Source of the DNA: Lysobacter sp.
GTDB taxonomy: Bacteria; Pseudomonadota; Gammaproteobacteria; Xanthomonadales; Xanthomonadaceae
Assembly (NCBI GenBank): GCA_019634715.1
Contig: JAHCAU010000001.1
Span: 124,001 to 188,000 of the forward strand
Direction: 5' to 3'
Length of the DNA: 64,000 nt
This document shows, piece by piece, positions 10,382-37,520 of this stretch. Position 1 is the first letter of the stretch. Each line of letters begins with the position of its first letter. The translations under genes were made by a program, and so were the position numbers. Under the pieces are notes generated by a model. It made no database searches and was not told the DNA's origin. It saw only the letters and a program-made list of their open reading frames with translations.

Positions 10382-10951
10382 ATGAGAACCGCGCATTATC
10401 CGTACTCGACCGCCCCGGCGCCATTGCCCCGGCGCCCCGCCGTCGTTCGGGTCGGCGCGATGCTGGCCTTGGCGGCCCTGCTCTCCGCCTGCGGCGGCGG
10501 CAACGTCCGCAGCGACCGCCCCGCGCCGCCACCGGCCAAGCGCCAGTGGGCGACGGTCGCGCCCAGCGATCCGGCCGCGGCCAATACCGTCCTGATGCGC
10601 GCGCTCGGCCTGGTCGGCACGCCCTACCGCTATGGCGGCAACACGCCCGAAAGCGGCTTCGACTGCAGCGGCCTGGTCAATTACGTCTTCCGCGACACCC
10701 TCGATGTGCGCCTGCCGCGCAGTTCCCGCGACCTGGCCGCGATGCAGGGGCCGAAGATCGCCCCCGAGCGGCTGGCGCCGGCCGATCTGGTGTTCTTCGG
10801 CCAGGGCGGCGAGGTCAGCCATGTCGGCATCTACGTGGGCGAAGGCCGCTTCGTCCATGCGCCCCGGACCGGGGGTACGGTCCGCCTCGACCATCTCGAT
10901 GGTGCCTGGTGGCGGGACCACTACACCGGAGCCAAACGGGTCCTCCGTTGA
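10382..10951 (+). CDS. NlpC/P60 cell-wall hydrolase, lipoprotein
   Basis: This 189-residue protein is a predicted peptidoglycan endopeptidase of the NlpC/P60 family. The catalytic cysteine is Cys95 in ESGFDCSGLV, His147 in VSHVGIYVG is the base, and His159 in RFVHAP is the third residue. A lipobox (LLSAC, Cys37) predicts an outer-membrane lipoprotein. From ATG 10382 the lipobox is preceded by an unusually long arginine-containing leader; a start at ATG 10460 would leave only a short leader, so the start is uncertain. The next gene encodes a close paralogue, and the two may act together in cell-wall remodelling. The gene starts about 100 bases from the divergent slyD. Confidence 0.88.
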   Translation: MRTAHYPYSTAPAPLPRRPAVVRVGAMLALAALLSACGGGNVRSDRPAPPPAKRQWATVAPSDPAAANTVLMRALGLVGTPYRYGGNTPESGFDCSGLVNYVFRDTLDVRLPRSSRDLAAMQGPKIAPERLAPADLVFFGQGGEVSHVGIYVGEGRFVHAPRTGGTVRLDHLDGAWWRDHYTGAKRVLR

Positions 10952-14201: not shown

Positions 14202-15896
14202 ATGCCTGTCCGCCTCGCCCCGCTCGTGTCCGCCTGTGTCCTTGTCCTCGGCCTGATCGCCGCACCCTCGACGGACGCCCGCAAACCTTCGAAAGCGCCG
14301 TCTCCGATCGACGTGCCGCAGATCCGCCACCCCCACGGCGAAACCCCGGCCTGGTGGTTCCGTGCCGGCGCGGCGCAGGCAGCCGAACGCGGCGCGATGG
14401 CAGGCAGGGCGAAGAACGTGATCCTGTTCGTCGGCGACGGCATGAGCCTGCCCACCGTGGCCGCCGCGCGCATCCTCGACGGCCAGCGCAGGCAGCAGCC
14501 CGGCGAGGAAAACCTGCTGAGCTGGGAACGCTTCCCGCACACCGCGCTGAGCAAGACCTACAACACCGACAGCCAGACGCCCGATTCGGCCGGCACCATG
14601 ACCGCGATGGCCACCGGCGTGAAGACCCGCGCCGGCGTGCTGAACATCGGCCAGGACGTCGCGCGCGGCGACTGCGCGGGCGCGTTGCGCTCGCCGATCC
14701 TCAGTCTTTGGGAACTGGCGGCGTCCAGCGGCCTGGCCACGGGCGTGGTCACCACCACCCGCGTCACCCATGCCACGCCCGGTGCGACCTTCACCCACTC
14801 GCCCGACCGCAACTGGGAGAACGACGAGGAAATGCCGCAGGCCGCGCACGAGGCCGGCTGTCGCGACATCGCACGGCAGTTCGTCGAGACACCCTACGGC
14901 CTCGGCCCCGACGTGCTGATGGGCGGCGGTCGCGCGAACTTCATGCCCGCCACGCAACGCGACCCCGAGTACGACGACAAGGTCGGCCAACGCCTGGACG
15001 GCCGCGACCTGGTCGCCGAATGGAAGCAGCGCCGCCCCGACGGCACCTACGTCTGGAACGCGAAGCAGTTCGCCGAAGCCCCGGCCGATGGCCCGCTGCT
15101 GGCGCTGTTCGAGCCGAGCCACATGCAGTTCGAGCACGACCGCCCCAACGACCGCGCCGGCGAACCCTCGCTCGCGGAGATGACCCGCGCCGCGATCGCG
15201 CGCCTGCAGCGCAACCGCCAGGGCTACGTGCTGCTGGTCGAAGGCGGCCGCATCGACCACGCCCACCACTACGGCAACGCCTACCGCGCGCTGACCGACA
15301 CCATCGCGATGAGCGAAGCGGTCGCCGCCGCCACCGGGATGACCTCGGCCGAGGACACGCTGATCCTGGTCACCGCCGACCATGCCCACACCATGACCTT
15401 CGCCGGCTACCCGGTGCGCGGCAATCCGATCCTGGGCAAGGTGCGCGGCAGCAGCGGCGAAGGCCACGACTCCGGCAGCTACGCCACCGACGCCACGGGC
15501 CTGACCTACACCACGCTGGGCTACGCCAACGGCCCCGGCCACGTCGGCGCCACCGACCAGCAGCCAGAAGGCCCGAAGACCTTCCTGCACGAGGTCAGCG
15601 GCTACCAGTCCGCCTCCGGCCGCCCGAACCTCGCCGAGGTCGACACCGAGCACCCGGACTACCTGCAGGAATCCACCGTGCCGATGGCCAACGAAAGCCA
15701 CGGCGGCGACGATGTCGGCATCTGGGCGCGCGGCCCGGGCGCGCACGCCGTGCGCGGCACGCTGGAACAGCACGCGATCTTCCACATCTTCCTGCAGGCC
15801 ATGCCCGCACTGCGCCAGCCGCTGTGCGCGCGCAGGCTGTGCAACGTCGACGGCGTGCCGGTGGACCTGCCGAGGCCGGAGATGTTCGCGAAGTGA
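14202..15896 (+). CDS. Alkaline phosphatase (PhoA superfamily), secreted
   Basis: The 564-residue protein hydrolyses phosphomonoesters in the periplasm or outside the cell. A signal peptide occupies about residues 1-26. The metal site begins with VILFVGDGMS (Asp79), the nucleophile is Ser129 in TPDSAGTMTAMATGVKT, and the second metal ligands lie in VEGGRIDHAHHYGN and LVTADHAHTM. The late histidine is in ESHGGDDVGIWARGPGA. The length is larger than E. coli PhoA (471) because of loops between residues 190 and 290. It is monocistronic, followed by a REP pair. Pho regulation is plausible, but I did not identify a Pho box with confidence. Confidence 0.93.
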   Translation: MPVRLAPLVSACVLVLGLIAAPSTDARKPSKAPSPIDVPQIRHPHGETPAWWFRAGAAQAAERGAMAGRAKNVILFVGDGMSLPTVAAARILDGQRRQQPGEENLLSWERFPHTALSKTYNTDSQTPDSAGTMTAMATGVKTRAGVLNIGQDVARGDCAGALRSPILSLWELAASSGLATGVVTTTRVTHATPGATFTHSPDRNWENDEEMPQAAHEAGCRDIARQFVETPYGLGPDVLMGGGRANFMPATQRDPEYDDKVGQRLDGRDLVAEWKQRRPDGTYVWNAKQFAEAPADGPLLALFEPSHMQFEHDRPNDRAGEPSLAEMTRAAIARLQRNRQGYVLLVEGGRIDHAHHYGNAYRALTDTIAMSEAVAAATGMTSAEDTLILVTADHAHTMTFAGYPVRGNPILGKVRGSSGEGHDSGSYATDATGLTYTTLGYANGPGHVGATDQQPEGPKTFLHEVSGYQSASGRPNLAEVDTEHPDYLQESTVPMANESHGGDDVGIWARGPGAHAVRGTLEQHAIFHIFLQAMPALRQPLCARRLCNVDGVPVDLPRPEMFAK

Positions 15897-15936
15897 AGGC
15901 CCGCGCATCAGGCCCTTCAAGGCCGAGCGCCATCGC

Positions 15937-16011
15937 TTTGCAGGAGGGCCTTCAGGCCCGAGCTCTTGAATGCTGTTCGAAAAAGCTCGGGCCTGAAGGC
16001 CCTCCTGCAAA
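15937..16011. repeat. REP-like inverted pair, GGAGGGCCTTCAGGCCCGAGCT family
   Basis: Perfect 28-base inverted repeat, arms 15937-15964 and 15984-16011, loop of 19 bases. It lies between the converging phosphatase and HemJ-like genes. Other copies are at 27242-27323 and 53215-53292, and a single arm lies inside the gene at 45663-48020. Confidence 0.92.
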
Positions 16012-16021
16012 AATGCGTCGA

Positions 16022-16444
16022 TCAGAACGGCTTCGCCAGCACCAGGTAGACGACGGCGACGAGCGCGAACACCGGGATCTCGTTGAACACGCGGAGCATC
16101 GTCGACGAAGGCAGCGGCTTTCCGCCGGCCGCGCCCTTGAGCCAGCGGCCGGCGACGATGTAGTGCGCGAACATCAGCGCGACGAGGGTGAGCTTGGCAT
16201 GCAGCCAGCCCCCGGCGATGCCGAAGTGCATCCACAGGGTCAGGCCGAAGATCAGGGCCAGCCCGAACATGATGTGCCCGAAGCGGTACAGCCGGCGGCC
16301 CATGAGCACCAGCCGCTCGCGGACCACGGCCACGTCGCCGGCCTCGGCCAGGTTGATGAGGATGCGCGGCAGGTAGAACGCTGCGGCCATCCAGGCCATG
16401 ACGAACACCAGGTGTGCTGACTTTGTCCAGAAGTAGGCGGCCAT
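16022..16444 (-). CDS. hemJ: HemJ-like protoporphyrinogen IX oxidase / UPF0093 membrane protein
   Basis: The 140-residue membrane protein matches the HemJ/UPF0093 pattern in size and motifs. It starts MAAYFWTKSAHLVFVMAWMA with the conserved histidine of helix 1 and YLPR after it. Then come GRRLYRFGHIMFGLAL, GGWLHAKLTLVALM and, near the C-terminus, RVFNEIPVFALV. HemJ oxidises protoporphyrinogen IX in heme synthesis in many proteobacteria lacking HemG/HemY. Four hydrophobic helices are visible. The frame extends to 16474, but ATG 16444 gives the family length. It converges on the phosphatase gene. No other heme gene is in the window, so the assignment rests on motifs. Confidence 0.8.
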   Translation of the reverse strand: MAAYFWTKSAHLVFVMAWMAAAFYLPRILINLAEAGDVAVVRERLVLMGRRLYRFGHIMFGLALIFGLTLWMHFGIAGGWLHAKLTLVALMFAHYIVAGRWLKGAAGGKPLPSSTMLRVFNEIPVFALVAVVYLVLAKPF

Positions 16445-16751
16445 GCGCTTCGAGGCTCGGTTGCGGGCGGTCACCTTAGCAAATCGCGACCTTCGATCGC
16501 CGGATGGATGTCGACGACGGGCAGAACGCGTCGCGGCGAGTCACCCATCACTGCGCTTGTGTGACGCAGATGACGTTTGGCGTCACCCGACCGTGCGCCT
16601 GCCTCGTCATGCGACCGAAACATGAAGAAAGGTTCAGCGGATCCTTGCGTTTTGGGCTACGTTCGCATGGCACGCAGCGCACAGGCACCGAGGCAACATA
16701 CGCCTTGGCATGGAAGATGCTTATGGCGATTCGTCATCAATGGAGCCGAGC
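16445..16751. promoter_or_regulatory. Gap before the Roadblock/GTPase operon, with a dyad
   Basis: No gene is supported in this 307-base gap. It separates the divergent HemJ-like gene from the eight-gene operon and must carry both promoters. A dyad GTGACGC-N12-GCGTCAC lies at 16561-16586 and is the only conspicuous operator-like sequence. I cannot name the protein that would bind it. Confidence 0.4.
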
Positions 16752-17207
16752 ATGGCCGAGATCGTTCCTCTCCCCGCGAGCATGCATGGGGCGACGCAAG
16801 ACACATCGCCCGAGATGGCCGCGAGGATGGCCTGCCAGGACATCCTGGTCGCCCTGCTGCAACGTACCCACGCCACCCTCTTCGCCTCGATGGCGACGGT
16901 GGACGGCCGCAGCTATGCGCATGCCGGCAGCAGCCTGACCACCGCGAGCGCGCAACGCACGGCGGCGATCACCAGCTCATTGATGGGATTGATCGAATCC
17001 TTCAGCAAGGAAACCCTGAGCAGCGGCGCGCTCTACAACAGCATCGCCACCGACATGGGATCCATCGTCATCGTGCGCGTGCCGTCCAAGGCCCGGCTGC
17101 ATACGCTCTGCGTCTGCGCCGACAACACCGCGAACCTCGCGATGACCATCCGCGCCGCGCTCGACACCGCGCAGAAGCTCGCCGAGCGCATCGACGCCCC
17201 CCATTGA
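16752..17207 (+). CDS. Roadblock/LC7-domain-like protein 1
   Basis: The 151-residue product has the size and pattern of a Roadblock/LC7 (MglB-like) protein. A helix (DILVALLQRTHATLFASMAT) is followed by strands with VDGRSYAHAG, then a long Ser/Thr-rich helix (TASAQRTAAITSSLMGLIES). A final sheet follows: GSIVIVRVPSKARLHTLCVC. Roadblock proteins bind small Ras-like GTPases as activators or scaffolds, and such a GTPase is encoded 1.6 kb downstream. The frame is open from 16710, but ATG 16752 has GGAG about 9 bases upstream. It is the first gene of a same-strand run of eight. Confidence 0.72.
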   Translation: MAEIVPLPASMHGATQDTSPEMAARMACQDILVALLQRTHATLFASMATVDGRSYAHAGSSLTTASAQRTAAITSSLMGLIESFSKETLSSGALYNSIATDMGSIVIVRVPSKARLHTLCVCADNTANLAMTIRAALDTAQKLAERIDAPH

Positions 17208-17326
17208 CCGACCCGCCGGCCCCGGATGCGTCCAGTATCCCGCGACCGGCCGTCGCCACATGCCTTCCGCTCTTCGCTTTCCAACCCGAACCAACCCGAC
17301 CAACCGACAACAACAGGAGTAACCCG

Positions 17327-17683
17327 ATGGCAAAGATTTCCCTCGAAGCACTGCGCAGCATCGACGGCTACGTCGCATCCGCGCTCGTCGACATCGACAG
17401 CGGCATGCTGCTGGCCGGCGACGGCAGCGGCGTCAACCTCGAACTCGCCGCGGCAGGCAACACCGAAGTCGTGCGCGCCAAGCGCAAGGTCGCCAACGCG
17501 CTGAACCTCAACGACACGATCGAAGACATCCTGATCAGCCTGACCAAGCAGTACCACATCATCCGCCCGCTGGAATCGAACCAGAAGCTGTTCCTGTACG
17601 TGGTGCTGGACCGTTCCAAGTCGAACCTCGCGATGGCGCGCCACGAGCTGCGCACCTTCGAGAAGAGCGTGGATTTCTCCTGA
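17327..17683 (+). CDS. Roadblock/LC7-like protein 2
   Basis: The 118-residue product starts at ATG 17327, with AGGAG at 17315-17319. It has the compact alpha/beta pattern of Roadblock proteins: MAKISLEALRSIDGYVASAL, then VDIDSGMLLAGDGSGVNLEL as the first hairpin. Next comes a helix containing NTEVVRAKRKVANALNLN, then TKQYHIIRPLESNQKLFLYV leading into the last strands, and a C-terminal helix. Bacterial relatives of this shape are found next to GTPases. It may form heterodimers with the protein at 16752. The gap to the previous gene is 119 bases, so an internal promoter is possible. Confidence 0.72.
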   Translation: MAKISLEALRSIDGYVASALVDIDSGMLLAGDGSGVNLELAAAGNTEVVRAKRKVANALNLNDTIEDILISLTKQYHIIRPLESNQKLFLYVVLDRSKSNLAMARHELRTFEKSVDFS

Positions 17684-17780
17684 TTCCCGCAACGCCCTCC
17701 GGATGCGCCGCAACGGCGCATCCGGCGCTTCGCGCATCGCGTACTCCACCGCTCCAACCACTCTTTCCGAGCCGGCGTCC

Positions 17781-18710
17781 ATGCTCCGTGCCGATATCAC
17801 TTTTTCCGCGCTCGGCGAACAGGCCGAACAGCGCGTCCGCCTCGCCGTGCAACTGCTGGCGGCGTACCGGATCCGCGCGAAGGTGCGTCCCTGGGACGGC
17901 ACGCGCTGCGACCTGCTGGTGACCGACCTGTCCGATGCCTACGGGCGCAGGACGCACGACCTCGCGCGCACGCGCGGCACGCCGGTCCTGGCCTTCGGTG
18001 TCGATGGCGACGCAGCGGGCAACGGCATCGGCATCGCACCCGACAACAGCCTGGCGCCCACGCTCGCGCAGTCGATGCGCGAACTGCTCGCACCCGATGC
18101 GCGCGACGACGAACCCGATGCGCAGGCCGATGCGATGCCCGCGCTGTGCCGGCTCGCAGCCGCGGATTTCAGGGGCCTCGGCGTCGACGCGACCAGCAAC
18201 GGCCGGATCGTCCGGATCCGTCCCGAGGAAGGCCGCGTGTACGCGCCGACCCTGAGCGACCTGCTGTCCGCGGTCGACACATTCTGCAGCGCGGACTGGT
18301 CGCTCGCGCGCAACGATGCGGATGGCCGCCCGCGCGAGGACGGCGCCAGCCGCAGCCTCGAAGCCTTCCTGCTGCAGGCGGCCTTCGCCGCGCGCGATGC
18401 GCTGCCGCGTTTCCCCGAAGGTCGCTACCGCCTGAGCGACTGGCCCGATGTCGGCAGCGCGCCCGAACGGGTCGACTCGCTGAAGATCGCCAGGCAACTG
18501 CTCGACGGCAGCGCGAGCGCGGGCGAACTGGTCGCGGCCTGCCGGGTCGAGGCCGCCGACGTGAACGCCACGCTGTGGGCCTATGCCGCCGCCAACCTGC
18601 TGGACATGCCCGATGCGATGCCCAGGGAGGAACCGCCGCCGCAAACGGCGCGGCCGTTCTCCGGCATCATGGCCCGCATCGCCCAGCGCTTCGGCCTGGG
18701 GCGCGCATGA
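17781..18710 (+). CDS. Hypothetical protein of the GTPase/Roadblock operon
   Basis: The 309-residue protein is not recognised as a named family. The N-terminal third alternates strands and helices (RIRAKVRPWDGTRCDLLVTD, RGTPVLAFGVDGDAAGN) in a way that recalls a receiver-like or Rossmann fold without a clear phospho-acceptor. The C-terminal part has a helix-turn-helix-like segment, LKIARQLLDGSASAGELVAA followed by VEAADVNATLWAYAAANLLD, resembling the winged-helix part of DUF4388-type proteins. No signal peptide or membrane helix is seen. ATG 17781 is chosen over 17703 because composition becomes protein-like there. Given its position it may be an effector or adaptor of the GTPase. Confidence 0.7.
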   Translation: MLRADITFSALGEQAEQRVRLAVQLLAAYRIRAKVRPWDGTRCDLLVTDLSDAYGRRTHDLARTRGTPVLAFGVDGDAAGNGIGIAPDNSLAPTLAQSMRELLAPDARDDEPDAQADAMPALCRLAAADFRGLGVDATSNGRIVRIRPEEGRVYAPTLSDLLSAVDTFCSADWSLARNDADGRPREDGASRSLEAFLLQAAFAARDALPRFPEGRYRLSDWPDVGSAPERVDSLKIARQLLDGSASAGELVAACRVEAADVNATLWAYAAANLLDMPDAMPREEPPPQTARPFSGIMARIAQRFGLGRA

Positions 18711-18814
18711 GCGGGCGCTGACCGCATCCGCACGCCGCAACGCATCACCGCAACGCGTCGGGCCGCGCCACCGGCTGCGCCCGCAGAGAATCACCAGAAA
18801 AGAGCAGGATCGCC

Positions 18815-19342
18815 GTGTCGTTCGAAAGCGCAAAACTCGTATTCGCCGGACCCGTCGGCGCAGGCAAGACCACGTCCATCCGCTCGCTGTCGGATACCGC
18901 CCCGGTGTCCACGGAAATGCCGATGACCGATGGCGCGATGGGCGAGAAGACCACGACCACGGTCGCGCTGGACTTCTCGATGGTGCTGCTCGACGACGGC
19001 ACGCCGCTGCACATCTACGGACTGCCGGGCCAGGAACATTTCTCGCACATGCGGCCGATCGTGCTGGAAGGCGCCGTCGGCGTGGTCGTGGTGCTGCCGG
19101 GCGACCACGGCGACATCGAGGCGGCCTGCGAACACTGGCTGCGCTCGATCCGCGGCATTTCGCCCGGCATCGCCGTCGTGATCGGCATCACCCGCACGGA
19201 CCTGGCGCGCGGCTTCCGCATGGATGCCGTGCGCAAGGCGGTGCGCCGCTGCGGCCAACCGGTCCCGGTGTTCACCTTCGACGCGCGCGACCGCGAGCAG
19301 ACCTCGCACCTCGTGCGCGCCCTGCTGCTGTCGATCGGGTGA
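18815..19342 (+). CDS. Small Ras-like GTPase (MglA/COG2229-like)
   Basis: The 175-residue protein is a predicted GTP-binding switch. The P-loop is GPVGAGKTT at residues 12-20. Switch II reads YGLPGQEHF (residues 68-76), where the canonical Asp of DxxGQ is replaced by Gly, as often in the bacterial COG2229 GTPases. The base-recognition motif is TRTD at 126-129, a variant of NKxD. The start is GTG 18815 with AGCAGGA upstream. Its stop overlaps the next start in a GTGA arrangement, so translation is coupled. With two Roadblock-like proteins upstream, it resembles the MglA/MglB polarity switch and the GTPase part of streptomycete conservons. Confidence 0.85.
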   Translation: MSFESAKLVFAGPVGAGKTTSIRSLSDTAPVSTEMPMTDGAMGEKTTTTVALDFSMVLLDDGTPLHIYGLPGQEHFSHMRPIVLEGAVGVVVVLPGDHGDIEAACEHWLRSIRGISPGIAVVIGITRTDLARGFRMDAVRKAVRRCGQPVPVFTFDARDREQTSHLVRALLLSIG

Positions 19343-20277
19343 ACGCGGCCGCGCACGAAGTCGTCGCTGCGTTCGCACGCGCCGGACTCGCGCTGCATGC
19401 GCGGCTGCGCGAGATGCTCGACGAACACCCCTCGCATCGCACCGAACGACGCGGCTGCGGCTACACCCAGGCCACGCGCTTCCTGTCCACGCACATCAAC
19501 CAGCCGCGCGCGCCGGATTCGGCGTCGGACTTCGTCGTGCTCGCGACCTGGCCGAAGGCGCGCACCGAAGCGCTCGCGCAGCAGGCGATCGCGGCCGGCT
19601 GGGCGCAGGGCTGGCGCCGGCTGGACCGCTGCGACGACGCCATCGTGTCGACATTGGACGACGAGGGCGCCACGCGCCTGCTGGTCGCGCTGCCGCGCAC
19701 GCTCGCCGCGATCCACGCATCGCTGCAGCACGAGGAAAGCCGGCTCCTGGCCGACCTGCTGCGGCAGATCCTCGCACCGGATCCCGGAGGCGCGTCGATG
19801 CTGCCGGAGATGCGCGAGAAACCCGAGATCGGCAGTTGTTCGCAGGCCGAGGAATTCTTCCTGGAGATCGCGCATGGCCGCGTGCGTCGCGGCGGTCGCG
19901 TGAACCTGTTCGTCGACGCGGAAGGCCGGCCCGCACTCGTCGAGAAAATGGCCCTGGGCGAGTCGCATTCGGCCATGGCCATCGCCTCCGTGACCGTGGG
20001 CGGCGTGCGGCTGCCGCCCGGCGCCCTGTTCGCCCTGCGGTATCCCGACGCGACCGAACCGCTGCGCAGCACCGCATGCGGGCAGGTGTTCCCGCTGTCC
20101 GCGATCGCGCAGGCGCGTTTCCTGCGCCTGACCACGCTCGCGGTCTCGCCGGCCGCGCGCGCCCGCGCCTTCAGCGCCCAGTTCGAGGCCCAGCAGCGCA
20201 ACAACCTGCTGTCGCCGGGCACCACCACGATCGAGAACCTGCGCGCGTTCGCGCAGGCGCAACTGGGGCCGGCATGA
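19339..20277 (+). CDS. Hypothetical protein coupled to the small GTPase
   Basis: This 312-residue protein starts at GTG 19339, overlapping the GTPase stop by 4 bases, and ends in an ATGA overlap with the next gene. Such tight packing points to co-regulation and likely physical interaction. The N-terminal 150 residues are helical with a mixed segment (DFVVLATWPKARTEALAQQA). The C-terminal part contains GRVRRGGRVNLFVDAEGRPA and predicted beta strands, then an acidic-poor helical tail. I find no catalytic motif, signal peptide or membrane helix. It may be a GTPase effector; this is inferred only from context. Confidence 0.72.
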   Translation: MNAAAHEVVAAFARAGLALHARLREMLDEHPSHRTERRGCGYTQATRFLSTHINQPRAPDSASDFVVLATWPKARTEALAQQAIAAGWAQGWRRLDRCDDAIVSTLDDEGATRLLVALPRTLAAIHASLQHEESRLLADLLRQILAPDPGGASMLPEMREKPEIGSCSQAEEFFLEIAHGRVRRGGRVNLFVDAEGRPALVEKMALGESHSAMAIASVTVGGVRLPPGALFALRYPDATEPLRSTACGQVFPLSAIAQARFLRLTTLAVSPAARARAFSAQFEAQQRNNLLSPGTTTIENLRAFAQAQLGPA

Positions 20278-21188
20278 CCGGCGATGCCGGGCGGATCCCC
20301 GCCTTCTACCGGCCCGAGTACGCGCCCGAGGAGGTGCCGCTGCTGGCGCGCCTGGAGACCACGGCACGCAAGCTCGAACGCCTGCGCCTGGTGGATCTGC
20401 ATGCACCGCCGCCGATCGATCCTTCGCGCCTGGCCGGGCTGCACGACGAAGCCTATCTGCAGGCGTTCCTCGCCGGCACCGAGCCGATGGCCTCGCGCCA
20501 GGGCATCCCGTGGTCGCCGCGCGTGCGCGACGCCACGCTCGCCATGCTCGGCGGCCAGATCGCCGCTGCCGATGCCGCGCAACGCCACGGCATCGCGATG
20601 AACATCGCGCGCGGCTTCCATCACGCGGTGCCCGCCTGCGGCAGCGGCTACTGCCCGCTCAACGGTCTCGCCCTGCTCGCCCATGCCGCGCCGGAGAAGC
20701 GCGTCATGGTGATCGACTGCGACGAACACGGCGGCAACGGCACCGAGGAATTCGCCGCGCGCATGCCCAATCTGTACAACGTGTCGATCTTCGGCACGCG
20801 CTTCGGCTGTCGCGGCGGCACGCGTTCGTGGGCGACGCAGGTGCGCGTGCGCGAGCACGGCTTCCAGCGCTACCTCGACGCGCTGGACGAAGCGCAGGGC
20901 CTGATCGACGCGCATCGTCCCGACCTGCTGGTCTACCAGGCAGGCGCCGATTGCCACGAAGACGACCCGAAGAGCCAGGTCGGCCTGAGCACGGCGCAGA
21001 TGTTCGCGCGCGATCTGGTGGTGTTCCGCATGGCGCGTGCCCGAGGCATTCCGATCGTGTTCGTCGTCGCCGGCGGGTACCAGCAGGCGCAACACGTGGC
21101 GCGTCTCAACGCGAACACCGTGCGCGCGGCGCGTCACGTCTGGCGCGGTGCGGCGGACGGCGCGACGCCGGGGAACGCTCCGTCCTGA
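20274..21188 (+). CDS. Histone-deacetylase-fold amidohydrolase
   Basis: The 304-residue enzyme belongs to the arginase/deacetylase superfamily that removes acyl groups from lysine or polyamines using zinc. The paired catalytic histidines are His116-His117 in RGFHHAVP. The zinc ligands are Asp150 and His152 in DCDEHGGNGT, and Asp226 in QAGADCHEDDP. The active-site Tyr is in VVAGGYQQ. All key residues are therefore present. It starts within the stop of the upstream gene (ATGA), placing it in the GTPase operon. A deacetylase in such an operon is unusual; it could act on an acetylated operon protein or be an unrelated passenger. The substrate is unknown. Confidence 0.88.
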   Translation: MTGDAGRIPAFYRPEYAPEEVPLLARLETTARKLERLRLVDLHAPPPIDPSRLAGLHDEAYLQAFLAGTEPMASRQGIPWSPRVRDATLAMLGGQIAAADAAQRHGIAMNIARGFHHAVPACGSGYCPLNGLALLAHAAPEKRVMVIDCDEHGGNGTEEFAARMPNLYNVSIFGTRFGCRGGTRSWATQVRVREHGFQRYLDALDEAQGLIDAHRPDLLVYQAGADCHEDDPKSQVGLSTAQMFARDLVVFRMARARGIPIVFVVAGGYQQAQHVARLNANTVRAARHVWRGAADGATPGNAPS

Positions 21189-21222
21189 TCGCGCGCGCCC
21201 AGCCTCGTGTATGGTCGGCGCC

Positions 21223-22008
21223 ATGACACACGCCGCCACTGCCCTGCCCGTGCTGTTCCTCGGCCATGGCTCGCCGATGAACGCGATCGAGGACAACGCC
21301 TGGTCGCGCGCATGGCGCACCCTCGCCACGCGCCTGCCGCGTCCACGCGCGATCCTCTGCGTGTCCGCGCACTGGGAGACCCCGGGCCCGTGGCTCACGG
21401 GGACCGACGCACCGGCGACGATCCACGATTTCGGAGGCTTCCCGCAGGCGCTGTTCGACGTGCGCTATCCCGCGCCGGGCGATCCGGCACTGGCGCAGCG
21501 CGTGGTCGAACTGCTCGGCGACGCCGGTGCGCGCATCGATCCCGACCGCGGCCTCGACCACGGCGCCTGGGGCGTGCTGCGGCCGATGTATCCCGAGGCA
21601 GATATCCCCGTCGTCCAGCTCGGCATCGATTCGCGCCGTCCGGGCGCATGGCACATCGCGCTCGCGCGCAGGCTCGCGCCGCTGCGCGACGAAGGCGTGC
21701 TGGTGGCCGGCAGCGGCGACATCGTGCACAACCTGCGCCTGTTCGACTGGCGCGACCCGACGCCGCTGCCGTGGGCACTGCGCTTCCGCGATCGCGTGAA
21801 TGCGCTCATCCGCGATCGCGACTTCGCCGCGCTGGCCGACTGGCCGTCGCTGGGCGAGGATGCGCGGCTGTCGATCCCGACGCCCGAACACTACCTGCCG
21901 CTGCTCTATGCACTGGCCCTGGCCCGCGATGGCGACACGATCGATATCTTCAACGACGACGTGATCGGCTCGCTGTCGATGACCTCGCTGCTGATCGGCC
22001 ACGCATGA
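21223..22008 (+). CDS. Extradiol aromatic ring-opening dioxygenase (DODA type, YgiD-like)
   Basis: The 261-residue product matches class III extradiol dioxygenases of the 4,5-DOPA dioxygenase group, which open catechol rings with a metal ion. Metal-site histidines are in FLGHGSPMNAIEDN and SAHWETPGPW; others conserved are in TIHDFGGFPQAL, DHGAWGVLRPMY and PTPEHYLPLLYAL. Length equals that of E. coli YgiD. An alternative ATG four codons upstream (21211) is possible. It lies 34 bases after the deacetylase gene on the same strand. The physiological substrate is unknown, and its link to the GTPase genes may be positional only. Confidence 0.9.
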   Translation: MTHAATALPVLFLGHGSPMNAIEDNAWSRAWRTLATRLPRPRAILCVSAHWETPGPWLTGTDAPATIHDFGGFPQALFDVRYPAPGDPALAQRVVELLGDAGARIDPDRGLDHGAWGVLRPMYPEADIPVVQLGIDSRRPGAWHIALARRLAPLRDEGVLVAGSGDIVHNLRLFDWRDPTPLPWALRFRDRVNALIRDRDFAALADWPSLGEDARLSIPTPEHYLPLLYALALARDGDTIDIFNDDVIGSLSMTSLLIGHA

Positions 22009-22033
22009 ACTCGGGACACATGAATCAGGACGC

Positions 22034-22636
22034 ATGAAGACACGACACAAGCGGTACGACCGCGAATACTTCGACCGCTGGTACCGCGATTCGGGCATCG
22101 GCGGCCGCCAGCGCCTGCAGCGCAAGGTCGCGCTGGCCCTGGCCACCGCCGAATACCATCTCGAACGGCCGATCCGCAGCGTCCTCGACATCGGCTGCGG
22201 CGAGGGCGCATGGCGCGCGCCGCTGCTGAAGCTGCGCCCGAAGCTGCGCTACCTCGGCTTCGACGCCAGCGAGTACGCCGTCCGCCGCTACGGCACGGCA
22301 CGCAACCTGCATCTCGCCGCGTTCGGCGATTTCGCGCAGTTGCGGCCCAGCGCACCGGTCGACCTGCTGGTCTGCAGCGACGTGCTGCATTACGTGCCGA
22401 CCCGCGAACTCGACAAGGGCCTGCCCGGCCTGGCCGAACTGTGCGGCGGCGTGGCCTTCCTCGAAACCTTCACCGCCGACGACGACATCGAAGGCGACCA
22501 CGACGGTTTCCTGCGCCGCCCGGCGCGCTTCTATCGCGACCGCCTCACCGCCATCGGCTTCATGCCGCTCGGCTCCCACTGCTGGCTGTCGCCGATGCTG
22601 GCGCCGGATGCATCGGCGCTGGAACTGGGCGGCTGA
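22034..22636 (+). CDS. Class I SAM-dependent methyltransferase
   Basis: The 200-residue protein has the SAM-binding motif I VLDIGCGEGAW at about residues 51-61, motif II with YLGFDASEYAVRRYG, and a post-motif region DLLVCSDVLHYVP. This is a complete class I methyltransferase fold in minimal size. The C-terminal part (RPARFYRDRLTAIGFMPLGS) resembles methyltransferases acting on small molecules, but the substrate is unknown. It lies 25 bases after the dioxygenase gene and is the last gene of the run; a hairpin terminator follows at 22732-22760. Confidence 0.85.
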   Translation: MKTRHKRYDREYFDRWYRDSGIGGRQRLQRKVALALATAEYHLERPIRSVLDIGCGEGAWRAPLLKLRPKLRYLGFDASEYAVRRYGTARNLHLAAFGDFAQLRPSAPVDLLVCSDVLHYVPTRELDKGLPGLAELCGGVAFLETFTADDDIEGDHDGFLRRPARFYRDRLTAIGFMPLGSHCWLSPMLAPDASALELGG

Positions 22637-22731
22637 GGCCTGACGCGTGTGCCCCCGGCGATTGCGCCTCGATTCTGGCGCGAATTGCGTAATACAATAA
22701 CATGATAAAATAATATATATCGTATACTTTG

Positions 22732-22760
22732 ACGGAAATCACGATTTTCCGTGCTTTTTT
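22732..22760 (+). terminator. Intrinsic terminator after the GTPase operon
   Basis: Stem ACGGAAA (22732-22738) and TTTCCGT (22746-22752) followed by six T residues at 22755-22760. It lies 96 bases after the methyltransferase stop. The preceding 60 bases are strikingly A/T-rich for this genome. Confidence 0.7.
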
Positions 22761-23221
22761 GCTGCGTTTGCAGCATGCGCCCCTTCGCGGCGATCAGTAA
22801 TGTCTTCGGCAGGTGACCGACAGTCCGTGCAGGGGGCTGCACATCGGCGGTCATCCGGGAATCCGCATCGGCGCGCGGAACGATCGAGCCGCATGTGGCG
22901 TTCCCGCTGACGCACAGGAACCGGACAGACAGGTTCTTCGTGCTTCCGAACGATGCATCGGGACACAGCCGGGCGGCGCAGAACCGCCTGCACGGGCCGG
23001 TATTGCCTGGATTCCGGCGATCCACCCAGCGACCGCGACGAAACAATGCCGGTACACGCAACGCGCAGCGCTCGCTGTGCGCAGGACACGTGCCGGCCAA
23101 GAACACGAGCGGCCCACGGCCGCCTCTCGCAGCGCAGGCGACCGTCTCCAGATGCATGGCCGAACAGGCCCGCGCCCAGCGCGGGCTTCGATTCACCACA
23201 CTCCCAACCGAGACAACGACC
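22761..23221. other. Gene-free leader before the secreted protease pair
   Basis: This 461-base gap has no supported gene although one frame stays open on the plus strand from 22895. Its translation lacks the amino-acid pattern of a protein and runs into the signal peptide of the next gene. The A/T-rich segment just before it (22690-22730) is the best place for a promoter serving the 23222 gene. I saw no riboswitch or operator I could name. Confidence 0.5.
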
Positions 23222-23932: not shown

Positions 23933-23980
23933 GCGCCCTGCGGACGCGATCCATCGAATCGAATGACGGAGCACATCCCA

Positions 23981-25684
23981 ATGAACAAACTTCCCATCCT
24001 TTCCGCCGCAACCCTCCTGCTGCTGGCAGGCGCGCAAACGGCAAGTGCCGCGAACTTCCTGAGAACCTGCAATGGCCGTCCGATGGGACTGCCGAACGCC
24101 TCGGTGGCGTGGAGCGTCTCCTCCGCAGGGTTTCCTGCCGGCGGCGTCTGGGACACCGCATTGCGGGCCGCGATCGCCCGCGTCAACGACAATCCCAGCA
24201 CGCTGAGGATGTCGATCGCCAACAACAACGACACCAGCGTCGCGATCGGCAACGGCCAGAACGAAATCTGGTTCAGCGGCAACGCGGCCGAAGCCAGCCC
24301 GGCCGTGGCCTACAACTACTACAGCTGCAACACATCGACCGGCGTGGGCTTCATCAGCGAAACCGATGTCCTCTTCTACAACGGCGAACCCTACACCCCC
24401 GACATGACGGTGAACGGACGACTGTACGGTTACGGCGGCGGCCTGCGGCCATTCCAGACCACGGCGGTGCACGAGTTCGGACATGCCTTCGGACTGGCGC
24501 ATTCGAACAGCGAATACAACGTCATGGGAACCGATTTCCATTTCATGACCACCAATGCCGGCGTCGGCCGGGCCTACCTCGGCGCCGACGCCAGCGACGG
24601 CGCAGTGCGGATCTACGGCGCCGCCTCGACCGCGGTGGAGGACGTTTCGCTGTCGCACTGGAAGTATTCCGGCGCGAGCGGCGCTTACAGCAGCCACGCC
24701 AAGACCATCCTCGCCAACGCCTCGGGCGTCGAACTGCCCAGCACCGTCGACGCGGGCGAAAAGCGGTATGCGGTCACCGGCGGCCAGACGGTGCAACTGG
24801 AACTGACCCGGGAGAACAACGGGCGGACCGCCCGGAGCGTGCGCGTCGGCTACTACCTGTCGACCGACAACAGGATCGACACGTCGGACAGGCAATTGGC
24901 GGTCGAGACAGTGAACGCCGTCCTCGGAGACCCGACGACCTGGCGCAGGACGCTGACCTTGCCGACCGGGCTGCCGTCAGGCAAGTACTGGCTCGGTGCG
25001 ATCATCGACGACAACAATGCACTTGCCGAACGCGTCGAAGACAACAACGCGATGTACATCCCGGTGTCCTACACGGGGGGTGGCGGTGGCGTGAACCAAC
25101 CGCCTGCCGCGAGTTTCAGCACGACCATCAGCGGCCTGACGGTCACATTCACCGACACCTCCACCGATGCCGACGGCAGCATCGCCTCGCGCAGCTGGAA
25201 TTTCGGCGACGGCACCACCTCGACCGCGGTCAATCCCAGCAGGACCTACGCGGCAGCCGGCACCTACACCGTGTCGTTGACCGTCACGGACGACCAGGGT
25301 GCGACCAACACCACCAGCCGCAGCGTGACGGTCAGCACGGGTGGAGGCGGCCTTCCGGAATGCACCGCAAGCAGGACCGACGAACTCGGCCGGAACTGCT
25401 CGCGGAGCAATCTCAGCGCATCCACCGGCAATACGCAGTACTTCTACCTGCTCGTGCCATCGGGTACCACGCAGCTGCGCATCACCACCACCGGTGGCAC
25501 CGGCAACGCGGACCTCTACTACAGCGCGTCGAGTTGGGCGACGCCGAACAACTACACGCTGCGCTCGGTGAACGCGGGCAACAACGAGACGATCACCGTC
25601 AACAACCCACCCAGCGGCTACGTCTACATTTCGGTCCACGCCGCCTCGTCCTTCAGCGGTCTGAAGGTCTCGACCGAATACTGA
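23981..25684 (+). CDS. Secreted metzincin metalloprotease with CARDB, PKD and PPC-like domains
   Basis: The 567-residue protein has a signal peptide (cleavage near residue 24), then a catalytic domain with the zinc motif HEFGHAFGLAH (His164, Glu165, His168, His174) and a Met-turn at Met182 (YNVMGTDFH), the mark of metzincins. A CARDB-like beta domain covers about residues 250-365 (SVRVGYYLSTDNRIDTSDRQ). A PKD domain follows at about 370-455 (SRSWNFGDGTTSTAVNPSRT), and a bacterial pre-peptidase C-terminal domain at about 460-567. It is predicted to be secreted, probably by type II secretion, and to degrade extracellular protein. Start ATG 23981 fits the signal peptide better than the upstream ATG 23963. 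Confidence 0.9.
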   Translation: MNKLPILSAATLLLLAGAQTASAANFLRTCNGRPMGLPNASVAWSVSSAGFPAGGVWDTALRAAIARVNDNPSTLRMSIANNNDTSVAIGNGQNEIWFSGNAAEASPAVAYNYYSCNTSTGVGFISETDVLFYNGEPYTPDMTVNGRLYGYGGGLRPFQTTAVHEFGHAFGLAHSNSEYNVMGTDFHFMTTNAGVGRAYLGADASDGAVRIYGAASTAVEDVSLSHWKYSGASGAYSSHAKTILANASGVELPSTVDAGEKRYAVTGGQTVQLELTRENNGRTARSVRVGYYLSTDNRIDTSDRQLAVETVNAVLGDPTTWRRTLTLPTGLPSGKYWLGAIIDDNNALAERVEDNNAMYIPVSYTGGGGGVNQPPAASFSTTISGLTVTFTDTSTDADGSIASRSWNFGDGTTSTAVNPSRTYAAAGTYTVSLTVTDDQGATNTTSRSVTVSTGGGGLPECTASRTDELGRNCSRSNLSASTGNTQYFYLLVPSGTTQLRITTTGGTGNADLYYSASSWATPNNYTLRSVNAGNNETITVNNPPSGYVYISVHAASSFSGLKVSTEY

Positions 25685-33419: not shown

Positions 33420-34937
33420 TCAGCCGCCACCGCCATCGCCGCCCCCTGCATCGCTCTGCGGCCCCTGCGGCGACAGCGTGCGCGGGCCGATCCGCATCGC
33501 CGGCCCCTTCGGGCCGTCCTGCTCCTGCTGCTGGGCAAGCTGCTGCGCCTGCTGCATCGTCTGCTCGCGCGCCTGCATCACGGTCTGCGAGACGGCCGAT
33601 GACTGTTCCAACGACTGCGACAAGGCCTGATCCATGTTGATCGCGATCCGCTGGTGCGCGGGATCGTCCAGCGCACCCTGGACGAGGAACACGGTTTCCG
33701 GCCGTCCGGTCTGCGGGTCGATCCTGCCCGGCACCGCATGATCGAAACCGGTGAACTTCCAGCCTTCTGCCGACAGCGACGTCGCCACGACCGATGCGCC
33801 CAATGCTTGTCGCTCATGCTGGGTCAGGCCGCCCATGCCGGGCGCGAGTTCGATCTGCGACAGCACCTGCTGCGCGCGCAGGTACATCCCGTGCGCAGCG
33901 TGCGTCGGTTCCGTCATCAGCACTGGCGACGGCCGCGCCTGGTCGAGGGCTGCGGTATCGATGCTGTCCGGCGTGCCCTGCATGCCGCTGCCGCTGCTGC
34001 GCAGCACGATGGGCCGGTAACGCCCCTGGCTGATGTCGATGATGGAAAACCCCTCGGCCGGCAAACGCAGGCCGGTGCTCTCCAGTTGCGCCTTGTCCAG
34101 TCCCAGCTTGGCCATGTCCAGCTTGATCGAGGGCGGCTGCACCCAGCCGCGCGTGTCGTCGGCAAGCTGCTCGATGAGATAGCCGCCGTAATAGTTGGGG
34201 TAATTCGCCGCCCCGCCCTTGCCGAGCGCGGCGCGGGACTGATCGAAGTGGCATTGCGCAACGGGTTCGAGATTGATCGGGCCGCGCTTGGGAATGCGGT
34301 GGTCCGACATCTGCATGTCGGGGTCGAGGAGGATGCCGGGGGCTGTAGTTCGTACACCTCGCTCTTCAACGATGCAGTCGGTCGTTGGTTGTGCACGTTC
34401 GAGCATCTCATCGCGGCCCGGCGGCCGGCCCTTGGTATACTCGATTCTGCTGGCCAGCGCGTTCCAGCCGTGGATTTCGGCGAGCGCTTCGTCCCTGCGC
34501 GCACTGCGGATGTAGGCACCAACGATCTGCGTTGCATCGAACTCCCCATCCTGTCCTGCCGCACGGATGCCTTCCGTGATCGCGTAACTCGCGGCATACC
34601 GCTCTTTCTCGGCCTTCTGGGTATAGAGCGCGTGGCCGGTCTCGTGACCGAGGGTGCTGGTGATGACGTCGAGGCGCGTTTGCGGATCACTCCTGAACGC
34701 CGCACGGGTAAACGTGTCCGGGCTGATGTAGATCGCTTTCTTGTCGCTGTGATAGCTCCCACCCTCGTTGGCGCCAGGATTACTCAGGCGAATATGCTTG
34801 AGCATCCCCGAATCGACGGCCTCGGTCATGATTTGCTGAAGATACGGGGAACTGGCCATGGCCGCTTCGATGTCAGCTCGCCTGTCGGCGGGTAATTCGT
34901 CCGTCAGATGGGCAAGGTTCGGCGAAATACTAGCCAT
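33420..34937 (-). CDS. Predicted T4SS antibacterial effector (X-Tfe): metallopeptidase domain plus XVIPCD
   Basis: The 505-residue protein has an N-terminal domain with the zinc motif HETGH (residues 98-102), preceded by VITSTLG and followed by the helix RRDEALAEIHGWNALASRIE, where a glutamate could be the third ligand. The C-terminal part (about 345-480) matches the XVIPCD that docks effectors to VirD4. Visible signs are HAAHGMYLRAQQVLSQ, the FDH motif in WKFTGFDHAVPG, and FLVQGALDDPAHQRIAINMD with EQSS after it, then a glutamine-rich tail. Such proteins are injected into rival bacteria by the Xanthomonadales T4SS. Start ATG 34937 overlaps the end of the upstream lipoprotein gene by 8 bases, and that gene is the likely immunity partner. 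No T4SS genes lie in the window. Confidence 0.85.
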   Translation of the reverse strand: MASISPNLAHLTDELPADRRADIEAAMASSPYLQQIMTEAVDSGMLKHIRLSNPGANEGGSYHSDKKAIYISPDTFTRAAFRSDPQTRLDVITSTLGHETGHALYTQKAEKERYAASYAITEGIRAAGQDGEFDATQIVGAYIRSARRDEALAEIHGWNALASRIEYTKGRPPGRDEMLERAQPTTDCIVEERGVRTTAPGILLDPDMQMSDHRIPKRGPINLEPVAQCHFDQSRAALGKGGAANYPNYYGGYLIEQLADDTRGWVQPPSIKLDMAKLGLDKAQLESTGLRLPAEGFSIIDISQGRYRPIVLRSSGSGMQGTPDSIDTAALDQARPSPVLMTEPTHAAHGMYLRAQQVLSQIELAPGMGGLTQHERQALGASVVATSLSAEGWKFTGFDHAVPGRIDPQTGRPETVFLVQGALDDPAHQRIAINMDQALSQSLEQSSAVSQTVMQAREQTMQQAQQLAQQQEQDGPKGPAMRIGPRTLSPQGPQSDAGGGDGGGG

Positions 34938-35685
34938 CGACCTCCCCTCCTCCAATGCGGAAACCTTCGATGCAGGTCGATTTACCACCGCCCTCCAGCA
35001 CCACATCGAAGATCAGCACTTCAATCCCGAATCCCGCCTTGCGCTCCGGAAAGCGCCTTCCGAATCCCCATGCCGTGCTCCTTCCCGACGGGTATGCACG
35101 CGAGTCGCTCTCATACCCCATCGCCACCAATTCCTTCGCCAGCGACTCGAATTCCAGCGTGCAATAAGTCGGTTGCTGATCGGAGAACGGCTCGACACCT
35201 TCGTCCAGATCAATAAGAATCGTTGGAGGCTGCTCCATTCTGCCCAGACGACTGACACCAATCCGATATCCCCAACCTTCCGTCGTCGCACCGAAGTACT
35301 GATAACCGTCGTCCATGCTGGGGCGCTTCACGAGAGCGACCTGCATTCTGCGCTCCACATTCCCCCGCTCCAGATCCTCCAGCGCCTGGAAGCTCCCCAG
35401 CAGCGCCAGAATCTGCCGCCGCAACTGCGCAGCCGGAATCGCGGGGCCGCGCTCATGCTCTGGAGCGGCAGCGACGGTATCGGCCGATTCGGCTGGCGTC
35501 GCGTCCGACTGGCTCGCGATCGGCGGTAACGCTTCGACCGGCGGCAGGTCCAGGCGCGTGGGGACATCCTGCGCGACCGTTACGTGAGGATCGACCTGCG
35601 GCGGCTGCGACCCATCCGCGCCACAGGCCGCCAGCGTGCTGCCCGTCGCGAGTGCGGCCACGGCCGCCACTGATTTCCATTGCAT
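34930..35685 (-). CDS. Predicted immunity lipoprotein (X-Tfi) A
   Basis: The 251-residue product starts MQWKSVAAVAALATGS and has a lipobox Cys about residue 21 (GSTLAAC), so it is a periplasm-facing lipoprotein, as known immunity proteins of T4SS effectors are. The mature part has a Pro/Ala-rich linker and then a globular domain (GYRIGVSRLGRM, TYCTLEFESLAKELVAMGYE) ending near two cysteines. It lies immediately upstream of the effector gene and overlaps it by 8 bases. ATG 35685 has a GAGGA sequence about 8 bases before it. The frame is open to ATG 35922, which overlaps the preceding gene by ATGA; that longer form would hide the signal peptide and is a real alternative. Confidence 0.78.
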   Translation of the reverse strand: MQWKSVAAVAALATGSTLAACGADGSQPPQVDPHVTVAQDVPTRLDLPPVEALPPIASQSDATPAESADTVAAAPEHERGPAIPAAQLRRQILALLGSFQALEDLERGNVERRMQVALVKRPSMDDGYQYFGATTEGWGYRIGVSRLGRMEQPPTILIDLDEGVEPFSDQQPTYCTLEFESLAKELVAMGYESDSRAYPSGRSTAWGFGRRFPERKAGFGIEVLIFDVVLEGGGKSTCIEGFRIGGGEVDG

Positions 35686-35918
35686 CGTCGTGTCCTCATC
35701 GGAAGGGGGAAGTGCCGGTGTCACGGGCGGAACGGCCGGGCGCGGCAATCGGGGCTTGCGCTTGGGTTGCACCTGAAGGCCACCGGGCGGCAGCGGCCCC
35801 AGGGCGCGCGCGATCTGTTCGTTGATCGCCTGCACGTCGCGCTGCAACTGCTGGTCGTGCAGTGGATCGCTTCGATTAGGGCGTTGTCGCCAGCGCAGGT
35901 CGATCTCATCGTTCTCCG

Positions 35919-36491
35919 TCATGGAGCGATCCTGTCCTGAGTGGTCCGGATTATGGCAGTGGATCCATCCTGTCGCACGCGACCAGATCCCCCTTTGATG
36001 TACTCGATCCTGCTGGTCAGCGCGTTCCAGCCGTGGATTTCGGCAAGCGCCTCGTCCCTGCGCGAACTGCGGATGTAGGCGCCGACCACAGCCGTTGCGT
36101 CAAACTCGCCGCCTTGTCCTGCCGCACGAATGCCCTCGGTGATGGCGTAGCTGGCGGCGTTGCGTTCCTTTTCCGCTTTCTGGGTATACAACGCATGGCC
36201 GGTCTCGTGGCCGAGGGTGCTGGTGATTGCATCAAGGCGGGGTTCTTTCTCCAGAATGCTGGTAAAGGTATTTGGGCTGATGTAGATCGCTTTTTCGTTG
36301 GCATGGTAGCTCCCGCCTTCATTGGCGCCCGGCGTGCCCACCCGGATGTGTTCCAGTGTTCCGGCATTGACGGCTTCGGTCATGATCTGCCGAAGATAGG
36401 GGGAACTGGCGATGGCCTCCTCGATTTCCGCCTTGCGACTTGCGGGAAGTTCGCTCGTCAAGTGCTGAAGATTCGGCGATAGCTTACTCAT
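35919..36491 (-). pseudogene. Truncated effector paralogue (metallopeptidase head only)
   Basis: The 190-codon frame matches the first 167 or so residues of the effector at 33420: same start motif (SPNLQHLTSELPASRKAEIE), HETGH at residues 95-99, and the helix RRDEALAEIHGWNALTSRIE. After that it runs into an unrelated 20-residue end. The middle domain and XVIPCD are missing, so it should not be secreted by the T4SS. It overlaps the upstream immunity B gene by 8 bases, exactly like the full effector, which shows that a whole immunity-effector unit was duplicated. It may be a decayed toxin or a small cytoplasmic peptidase. Confidence 0.8.
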
Positions 36492-37233: not shown

Positions 37234-37520
37234 CGTCGTGTCCTCATCGGAAGGGGGAAGGGCCGGTGTCACGGGCGGAACGGCCGGGCGCGGCAATCGG
37301 GGCTTGCGCTTGGGTTGCACCTGAAGGCCACCGGGCGGCAGCGGCCCCAGGGCGCGCGCGATCTGTTCGTTGATCGCCTGCACGTCGCGCTGCAACTGCT
37401 GGTCGTGCAGCATGTCGCCAAGATTGGGCCGCAAACATTGCCGAGGATCGCTGTCGTCGTCTGGCCTCATCATCTCAAGCGTTCCTTGCGACCAATACCA
37501 ACCGATTGTTCTGCATGGCA
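37234..37520 (-). other. Open-frame leader upstream of immunity B, duplicated before immunity A
   Basis: This in-frame extension encodes a conserved segment with LHDQQLQRDVQAINEQIARA and a proline-rich stretch, identical to that upstream of immunity A (35686-35870). The identity extends on into the immunity genes with a constant offset of 1548 bases for about 460 bases. Either both immunity genes use the upstream start, or the segment is a leftover of another gene. Confidence 0.55.

Follow-up and report, generated by a model that had tools for sequence, protein, structure and literature searches.

A six-gene MglA-type G-protein locus of Lysobacter with a candidate U2-deacetylase output

The six core genes and their products

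The region analyzed here is part of a stretch of 64,000 nt from Lysobacter sp. (assembly GCA_019634715.1, contig JAHCAU010000001.1, positions 124,001 to 188,000), referred to below as the window. Between positions 16752 and 22636 it contains eight open reading frames (ORFs), all on the plus strand, which an earlier note, made from the sequence alone, had described as a GTPase switch operon; all eight were confirmed, with boundaries as or near those first proposed. The first six are the subject of this work. They encode R1 (16752–17207; 151 aa; start ambiguous between 16710, 16740, and 16752), a Roadblock/LC7 (MglB-like) protein and candidate GTPase-activating protein (GAP); R2 (17327–17683; 118 aa), a probable second Roadblock-like protein that is hyper-conserved and whose gene is the one most tightly tied to the last two genes; U1 (17781–18710; 309 aa), with a receiver-like N domain and a helical C-terminal part; a small MglA-family GTPase (18815–19342; 175 aa; GTG start); U2 (19339–20277; 312 aa), which belongs to no known family; and HDAC (20274–21188; 304 aa), a predicted zinc enzyme of the HDAC superfamily (arginase/deacetylase fold). 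The GTPase and U2 genes overlap by GTGA (19339–19342) and the U2 and HDAC genes by ATGA (20274–20277), exactly as the earlier note had read them, and both overlaps were seen again in several other loci.

The GTPase matches PF08477 (Roc) and PF03029 (ATP_bind_1) above the Pfam cut-off, and a profile of 13 homologues finds the Thermus and Myxococcus MglA proteins as its top solved structures (2.6e-9 to 3.5e-9). These matches confirm the small GTPase of the earlier note as an MglA-family protein and support its likening of the locus to MglA/MglB switches, which also have Roadblock partners; judged from its sequence, the protein is a single-domain small GTPase of this family. Its motifs are GPVGAGKT (G1), KTTTT (G2), GLPGQ (G3), TRTD without the Lys (G4), and DAR (G5), and it is 94% identical to the GTPase of 'Lysobacteraceae bacterium 2PB'. 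Among 42 GTPases compared, the second position of G3 is Leu, Val, Met, Ala, or Thr. A second GTPase lineage (e.g., L062, L077, L111, and L114) has GTPGQ in G3 but DVR in G5, and the GTPase of locus L080 has NKLD as G4.

R1 scores 19.1 bits against PF03259, under the cut-off of 23, and 23 of the 26 members of its family match that model at E ≤ 0.01; its profile also matches the Roadblock structures 7f8m (5e-5) and CvnB5 3leq (3.2e-4). The Asp-Gly pair is kept by nearly all R1 homologues (41 of 43 have the Asp and all 43 the Gly), and identity among the homologues is 32–81%. R2 itself does not match PF03259; 9 of the 20 members of its family do at E ≤ 1 (best 1e-8), and the R2 profile has a weak match in the PDB (7yh1, E = 0.0041). 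Thus, of the two Roadblock-like proteins named in the earlier note, R1 is one by its profile and relatives, and R2 is a probable one. R2 has the highest sequence identity of the set (86–97% to the window copy in 10 homologues). Its Lys52 is invariant (39 of 39), and the Asp of the Asp-Gly pair is kept in 28 of 39 sequences, that is, the pair is not strict. The adjacent R1 and R2 genes give a GTPase to Roadblock ratio of 1:2.

For U1 and U2, the two proteins that the earlier note had left unrecognised and proposed as effectors, structure prediction gave different results: the N part of U1 is receiver-like, and U2 was modelled without a fold match. The AlphaFold model of U1 has a pLDDT of 80.4 and a pTM of 0.54. 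Its residues 1–107 superpose on receiver domains with Z 10.4–11.8 and a root-mean-square deviation (rmsd) of 2.2–3.9 over about 100 residues; flavodoxins and other Rossmann-like folds score alike. Asp49, which lies where strand 3 ends, is kept in 6 of 11 homologues and Asp52 in all 11, which makes phosphorylation of U1 doubtful. For the C-terminal part, no match was returned by any tool applied, and U1 shows no family match to CvnC, which we take to be Pfam DUF742. Identity among U1 homologues is 36–87%.

U2 has nothing over the cut-off in Pfam, NCBIfam, PADLOC, or PHROGs. Its AlphaFold model is confident (pLDDT 87.6, pTM 0.87); the N half is made of helices, and the C half is rich in beta structure. 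No convincing PDB match was found for the model with Foldseek or VIA-align: the best Foldseek hit is Serratia NucC (E = 0.13, query TM-score 0.12), and the best VIA-align row has Z 3.7 with an rmsd of 10.5 over 73 residues, followed by Nudix-type rows of Z 2.0–2.5. Against a viral structure library the best value is E = 0.36. The absence of structure matches for the predicted model does not by itself make the fold new. In 21 homologues 43 residues are invariant, including His33, Cys167, Glu171, Glu176, Glu202, and Lys203.

HDAC matches PF00850 with E = 1.3e-36 (126.9 bits, cut-off 27.9), and its nearest solved relative is 9gkv (E = 3.9e-38). His116, His117, Asp150, His152, Asp226, and Tyr269 are invariant in 23 of 23 sequences; placed via the 9gkv alignment, these are the residues that we take to be the His pair, the Asp-His-Asp zinc ligands, and the Tyr. 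HDAC is accordingly predicted to be a zinc-dependent deacetylase with an intact active site.

All eight genes are under purifying selection, with dN/dS values of 0.098–0.333 against three relatives; the lowest single value is that of the methyltransferase gene against L034, and R2 is steady at about 0.11. The GC content of the block (0.65–0.72) equals that of its surroundings, and a horizontal island recognizable by base composition was therefore rejected. No sigma-70-type promoter was found in 15890–23000 (0.4 expected by chance), and terminator-like sites lie at 22732–22752 on the plus strand, after the methyltransferase gene, and at 16002–15989 on the minus strand (3.3 expected in shuffles). 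With such expectations, the scan carries no weight in either direction.

Distribution, gene order and extent of the unit

Relatives of the proteins were sought in 198 genomes of the family, and U2 also in samples of the order, the class, and the phylum, which overlap. In the family sample a GTPase relative is present in 53 genomes, an R2 relative in 43, and U2 in 9. The window-type GTPase reaches at least 236 bits in 9 genomes (next 163), the window-type R2 at least 235 bits in 9, twice in one of them (next 185.5), and the HDAC subfamily at least 444 bits to its own profile in 9 (next HDAC-like enzyme 140). U2, the HDAC subfamily, the window-type R2, and the window-type GTPase occur in the identical 9 of the 198 genomes, with zero exceptions. 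In the broader samples, U2 was counted in 14 of 393 genomes for the order and 2 of 398 for the phylum; the class gave 4 of 369, of which one is a chance match. As sampled here, U2 is a protein family of Lysobacterales, and its one sure outlier (G556) comes from a different family of the class. A U2 match in G356 (E = 9.6e-4 over 56 residues, with an internal stop) was discarded as chance; its stretch (L085) holds no operon genes.

Altogether, 24 U2 loci were compared, 22 from U2-profile searches and two (L040 and L041) reached only via the GTPase. The HDAC gene lies immediately 3′ of U2 in all 23 loci whose contig continues; in the 24th (L039, G176) the contig ends inside U2, and the remaining piece of U2 stands on another contig, followed by HDAC. 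U2 and HDAC were never found apart, and co-conservation of the genes and membership of the deacetylase in the system are supported. All 21 testable loci have R2 in the cluster (20 of 20 without L040 and L041), three contigs beginning too late to tell; in L110 it is on the opposite strand. Of 22 testable loci, 20 have a GTPase in the cluster (18 of 20 if the same two are left aside); the genomes of the remaining two, L110 and L112, carry GTPase relatives of 247–257 bits elsewhere.

The order R1-R2-U1-GTPase-U2-HDAC is found in 15 loci, one of them cut at the HDAC end, and in one more that is cut at the 5′ end. Other orders are U1-GTPase-R1-R2-U2-HDAC (L077), R2-U2-HDAC-U1-GTPase-R1 (L111 and L114), and, in another family of the class, R2-x-GTPase-R1-U2-HDAC (L080; U2 identity 40%), where x is a 315-aa protein without a family match; L113 and L117 are cut to U2-HDAC. 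The only genes conserved beside U2-HDAC across the loci are the switch genes, other neighbours not having been annotated singly. R1 and U1 calls in distant loci go down to hidden Markov model scores of 23–40 bits, and some gene starts come from a codon-model gene caller instead of annotation.

In the GTPase tree (42 rows) the label 'with U2-HDAC' needs 6 changes, at least 3 of them forced by well-supported branches, and 0 of 500 shuffles were as low as 6. U2-HDAC thus appears, from this tree, to accompany two separate GTPase clades. In the R2 tree (39 rows) the same label needs 3 changes, at least 1 of them forced. Both trees are of a quick type without bootstrap and, like the residue counts, leave out L038 (a duplicate of L107), L039 (incomplete contig), and L043 (short contig); the residue counts are additionally without L113 for U2 and HDAC and without L117 for U2. 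The GTPases of L077, L111, and L114 belong to the other lineage, yet their R2 proteins do not join those of that lineage but group with the window's side (100% branch), so that R2 is a more faithful companion of U2-HDAC than is the GTPase.

The R1-R2-U1-GTPase set without U2 is common in Lysobacteraceae. Of 12 such loci (L045–L056), all with R1 and GTPase and no U2 in the stretch, 11 have R2, and the set of four is complete in 10; no U1 was called in L050, and neither R2 nor U1 in L055. The genome from which the window comes has a second locus of the U1-GTPase-R1-R2 type (G000:C5, L062), with no U2 in its stretch, and a lone Roadblock gene (G000:C31, L063 8998–9450). On MEFP01000011.1 (L042 and L081; judged to be one contig with G561:C11, the two being equally long and sharing genes) two switch clusters are separated by about 9 kb; one is split and lacks U2-HDAC, and the other is complete and includes it. 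Extra copies of window-like R2 occur away from U2 at G089:C44:119146, on G1163:C3 and C5, on G1189:C26, on G971:C155, and at L042:7151; the genomes concerned also hold U2, and some of the copies are near a GTPase, others orphan-like.

Close relatives define the limits of the unit. In four of 11 same-genus genomes (G061, G563, G564, and G565) the flanking genes lie side by side and all six core genes are missing from the site: an SDF symporter, a phosphatase, and the UPF0093 gene are followed directly by dioxygenase and methyltransferase, and then by a PHB-depolymerase gene in the three empty sites whose stretch extends that far. In the whole genome of G061 no GTPase, R2, or U2 was found, and there is a single weak HDAC-like match (E = 9.9e-10). 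In a tree of the flanking genes, in which L034 fills only half of the columns, the empty L091 (G061) is sister to the filled L044 (G013) with 100/100, and the tree forces at least 2 changes. The six genes have thus been gained or lost as one block at this site.

The LigB-type dioxygenase (21223–22008; PF02900, E = 3.2e-17) and the class I S-adenosylmethionine-dependent methyltransferase (22034–22636; PF08242, E = 1.2e-10) are present in 10 of the 11 same-genus genomes. Because four of these genomes have both genes at this very position but none of the core genes at the site, the two enzymes are bystanders, perhaps sharing a transcript with the block where it is present. An eight-gene unit, as the earlier note had drawn it, is therefore ruled out in favor of the six core genes, and the two last enzymes are not part of it. 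The order of the first six genes is retained far beyond chance, whereas the adjacency of the last two is retained within the genus only. The left border gene encodes a UPF0093 membrane protein (16022–16474, minus strand; PF03653, E = 6.9e-34). In the four empty sites (L091 at about 10440–10500, L092, L093, and L094) the motif TAGGATG(A/G)CACG is conserved between the UPF0093 and dioxygenase genes; it was not seen 5′ of the window dioxygenase gene, as if its own promoter had been ceded to the operon.

Just downstream of the block and outside it, 23963–25681 encodes a matrixin-like metalloprotease with PKD and PPC domains. Further along, the region 33423–37413 (minus strand), of lower GC (0.58–0.63), encodes a protein that carries an X-Tfes XVIPCD domain (PF20410, E = 1.4e-11), the targeting domain of antibacterial X-T4SS effectors, and then three ORFs without a Pfam match; these are possibly effector and immunity genes.

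Possible roles of the switch and the deacetylase

The interpretation that we favor, with about as much to be said for it as against it, is that the six genes form a G-protein cassette of the Group 3 MglA type, its dedicated output being a U2-deacetylase pair tied to R2. In such a cassette R1, which keeps the Asp-Gly pair of coupled MglB proteins, would act as the GAP of the GTPase, and R2, whose pair is not strict, would serve as an adaptor instead of a GAP. U2 would bind R2 and/or the GTP-bound GTPase and recruit or activate HDAC, which in turn would deacetylate or deacylate a lysine of some protein where or when the switch dictates; U1 would be an input or a transcriptional arm. Given a U2-HDAC pair that goes with a Roadblock-like protein, a switch-gated deacetylase would be the simplest reading, and the gene set suggests a connection, not described before, between a G-protein switch of bacteria and deacetylation. 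A bolder proposal, which we hold only tentatively, is that R2, U2, and HDAC together make up a transferable effector module, able to plug into MglA-type switches whichever of the two GTPase lineages they carry, with R2 as adaptor Roadblock, U2 as a GTPase-responsive new fold, and HDAC as the output. If true, this module would constitute a signalling pathway from a bacterial Ras-like GTPase to a lysine deacetylase.

Several observations weigh against the favored interpretation. Deacetylase activity and a protein substrate are presumed from the enzyme family. The profiles of R1 and R2 have no mutual similarity (hhalign probability 0.4%), so that R2 as a Roadblock protein leans on the 9 of 20 relatives that match at E ≤ 1. 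Extra window-like R2 copies lie apart from U2, the R2 of L080 is of a distant subtype (145 bits), and in L110 and L112 R2, U2, and HDAC stand without a clustered GTPase. The loci L045–L056 keep the switch genes without U2, so that the basic switch does not require the deacetylase. The co-occurrence in 9 genomes does not amount to 9 independent events, because 6 of the 9 belong to one genus, and absence of the core was checked genome-wide in G061 only, in G563, G564, and G565 at the site.

Among the alternatives, the one that survives best, though we consider it unlikely, is that the coupling is transcriptional only: a receiver-winged-helix protein would control promoters, and U2 and HDAC would be a co-regulated metabolic pair, engaged for example in the hydrolysis of acetylated polyamines or other amides, with no protein contact to the switch. 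Group 3 systems have a conserved neighbourhood, and their output has been guessed to be transcription from the receiver and winged-helix look of their unknown protein, as the available part of Wuichet and Sogaard-Andersen (2014, PMC4316618) describes it; residues 1–107 of U1 are likewise receiver-like, the HDAC superfamily includes acetylpolyamine amidohydrolases, and L110 and L112 have R2-U2-HDAC with no GTPase adjacent. However, co-regulation leaves unexplained why R2 has remained together with U2-HDAC in all 21 testable loci despite several rearrangements, and why the R2 subtype has the matching distribution in the family.

It is less likely still that U2 and HDAC are a writer and an eraser, U2 being an enzyme (possibly an acyltransferase or a Cys167 thiol enzyme) whose product HDAC reverses, with R2 or the GTPase as the substrate and the switch tuned by reversible acylation. 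The 43 invariant positions of U2, with Cys167, Glu171, Glu176, Glu202, Lys203, and His33 among them, could form an active site, and R2 is strongly constrained (dN/dS about 0.11, Lys52 invariant). However, U2 gave no match to an acyltransferase, by fold or by family, and its invariant residues may equally mark a binding surface.

A polarity or type IV pilus switch like MglA/MglB of Myxococcus, in which U2 and HDAC would be the effectors acting on pili or poles, seems improbable to us. It would agree with the proximity of the GTPase profile to Thermus and Myxococcus MglA among solved structures and with the finding that mutation of an orphan mglB in Snodgrassella changes spreading on soft agar, which was attributed to type IV pili (PMC11112851, in the part available). 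However, only switch genes are conserved beside U2-HDAC, and the GTPase lacks the Group 1 signature, having Thr in place of the Arg finger and GLPGQ instead of TVPGQ. Chance synteny, in which a few Lysobacterales would share a gene order peculiar to their lineage while the switch and U2-HDAC are functionally unconnected, can be given very little credence: 6 of the 9 family genomes are of one genus and the dioxygenase and methyltransferase genes are indeed mere local neighbours, but R2, U2, and HDAC stay together in several gene orders, one of them in another family of the class with a U2 of 40% identity, and the whole block is missing at the same site in close relatives.

For the switch-gated deacetylase, the presumed output is encoded in the same operon, so that what the switch controls becomes testable, namely whether a Ras-like GTPase of bacteria, together with its Roadblock regulators, controls a deacetylase. 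Natural plus/minus pairs are available among closely related strains, and the locus supplies a small nameless protein family, U2, whose model is confident but has no convincing counterpart among the folds compared.

Comparison with known systems

According to the available part of PMC4316618, Group 3 MglA systems occur in beta- and gamma-proteobacteria, including Stenotrophomonas and Xanthomonas, and comprise MglA, one or two MglBs, and a protein with a receiver-like N part and a winged-helix-like C part; their G4 often lacks the Lys, their G5 is DAR, the G3 of Groups 2–5 is GTPGQ, and an Asp-Gly pair is reported in MglBs coupled to Groups 2–5. A ratio of one MglA to two MglBs is among the arrangements described. 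The window has an MglA-family GTPase with TRTD as G4, DAR as G5, and Thr at G2, together with two Roadblock genes. Its G3, GLPGQ, differs, agreeing with GTPGQ at 4 of the 5 positions. The N part of U1 is receiver-like, with other Rossmann-like folds scoring alike, and its C part, where the published protein is winged-helix-like, found no match; by its model, U1 would fit the protein of these systems. Compared by published description, the predicted R1-R2-U1-GTPase core is of a known kind and fits the Group 3 MglA systems, whereas the U2-HDAC tail is the new part: no U2-like protein is mentioned in the available part of PMC4316618. Therefore, the statement of the earlier note that no system with this gene set had been described does not hold for the core. 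Of its two candidate effectors, U2 still is one, and U1 would fit the described protein of Group 3. A Group 3 system with a deacetylase was not found described in the open-access PMC literature, among the matches listed, and the word 'deacetylase' is absent from PMC4316618 and PMC11112851. One report of an organism phenotype for Group 3 was found, in Snodgrassella, where mglA was placed in this group and the orphan mglB mutation also favored colonization of a non-native host (PMC11112851, available part).

Two further assignments were rejected. Membership in Group 1, that of Myxococcus polarity, is at odds with the KTTTT and GLPGQ motifs; Group 1 MglA has an Arg finger beside the G2 Thr and TVPGQ as G3, as given in the available part of PMC4316618. 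Assignment to a known anti-phage defence system finds no basis in PADLOC-DB, where none of the six core proteins has a match at E ≤ 0.1; the neighbouring methyltransferase has a partial match only.

The actinobacterial conservons (CvnA-D), which the earlier note had also invoked, share a GTPase, a Roadblock protein, and a further protein in one operon, and their GTPases also carry DAR in G5 (PMC4316618, same part). The six proteins include no sensor histidine kinase and U1 no CvnC match, with U2 and HDAC present instead; the conservons are therefore not the nearest relative, and membership was rejected. The M. xanthus module of MglA, MglB, and RomY, in which a partner protein makes the GAP complex bipartite, also combines a Ras-like GTPase, a Roadblock GAP, and a partner and sets a precedent for a composite GAP; it differs in that its Group 1 GTPase has its own Arg finger and in that no deacetylase is named in the available part of the report (PMC9481161). 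With the bacterial HDAC-superfamily deacetylases of known structure (9gkv and 9rje), the window enzyme shares the fold family, the zinc ligands, the His pair, and the catalytic Tyr, whereas it forms a separate subfamily, whose gene stands 3′ of U2 in every checkable locus.

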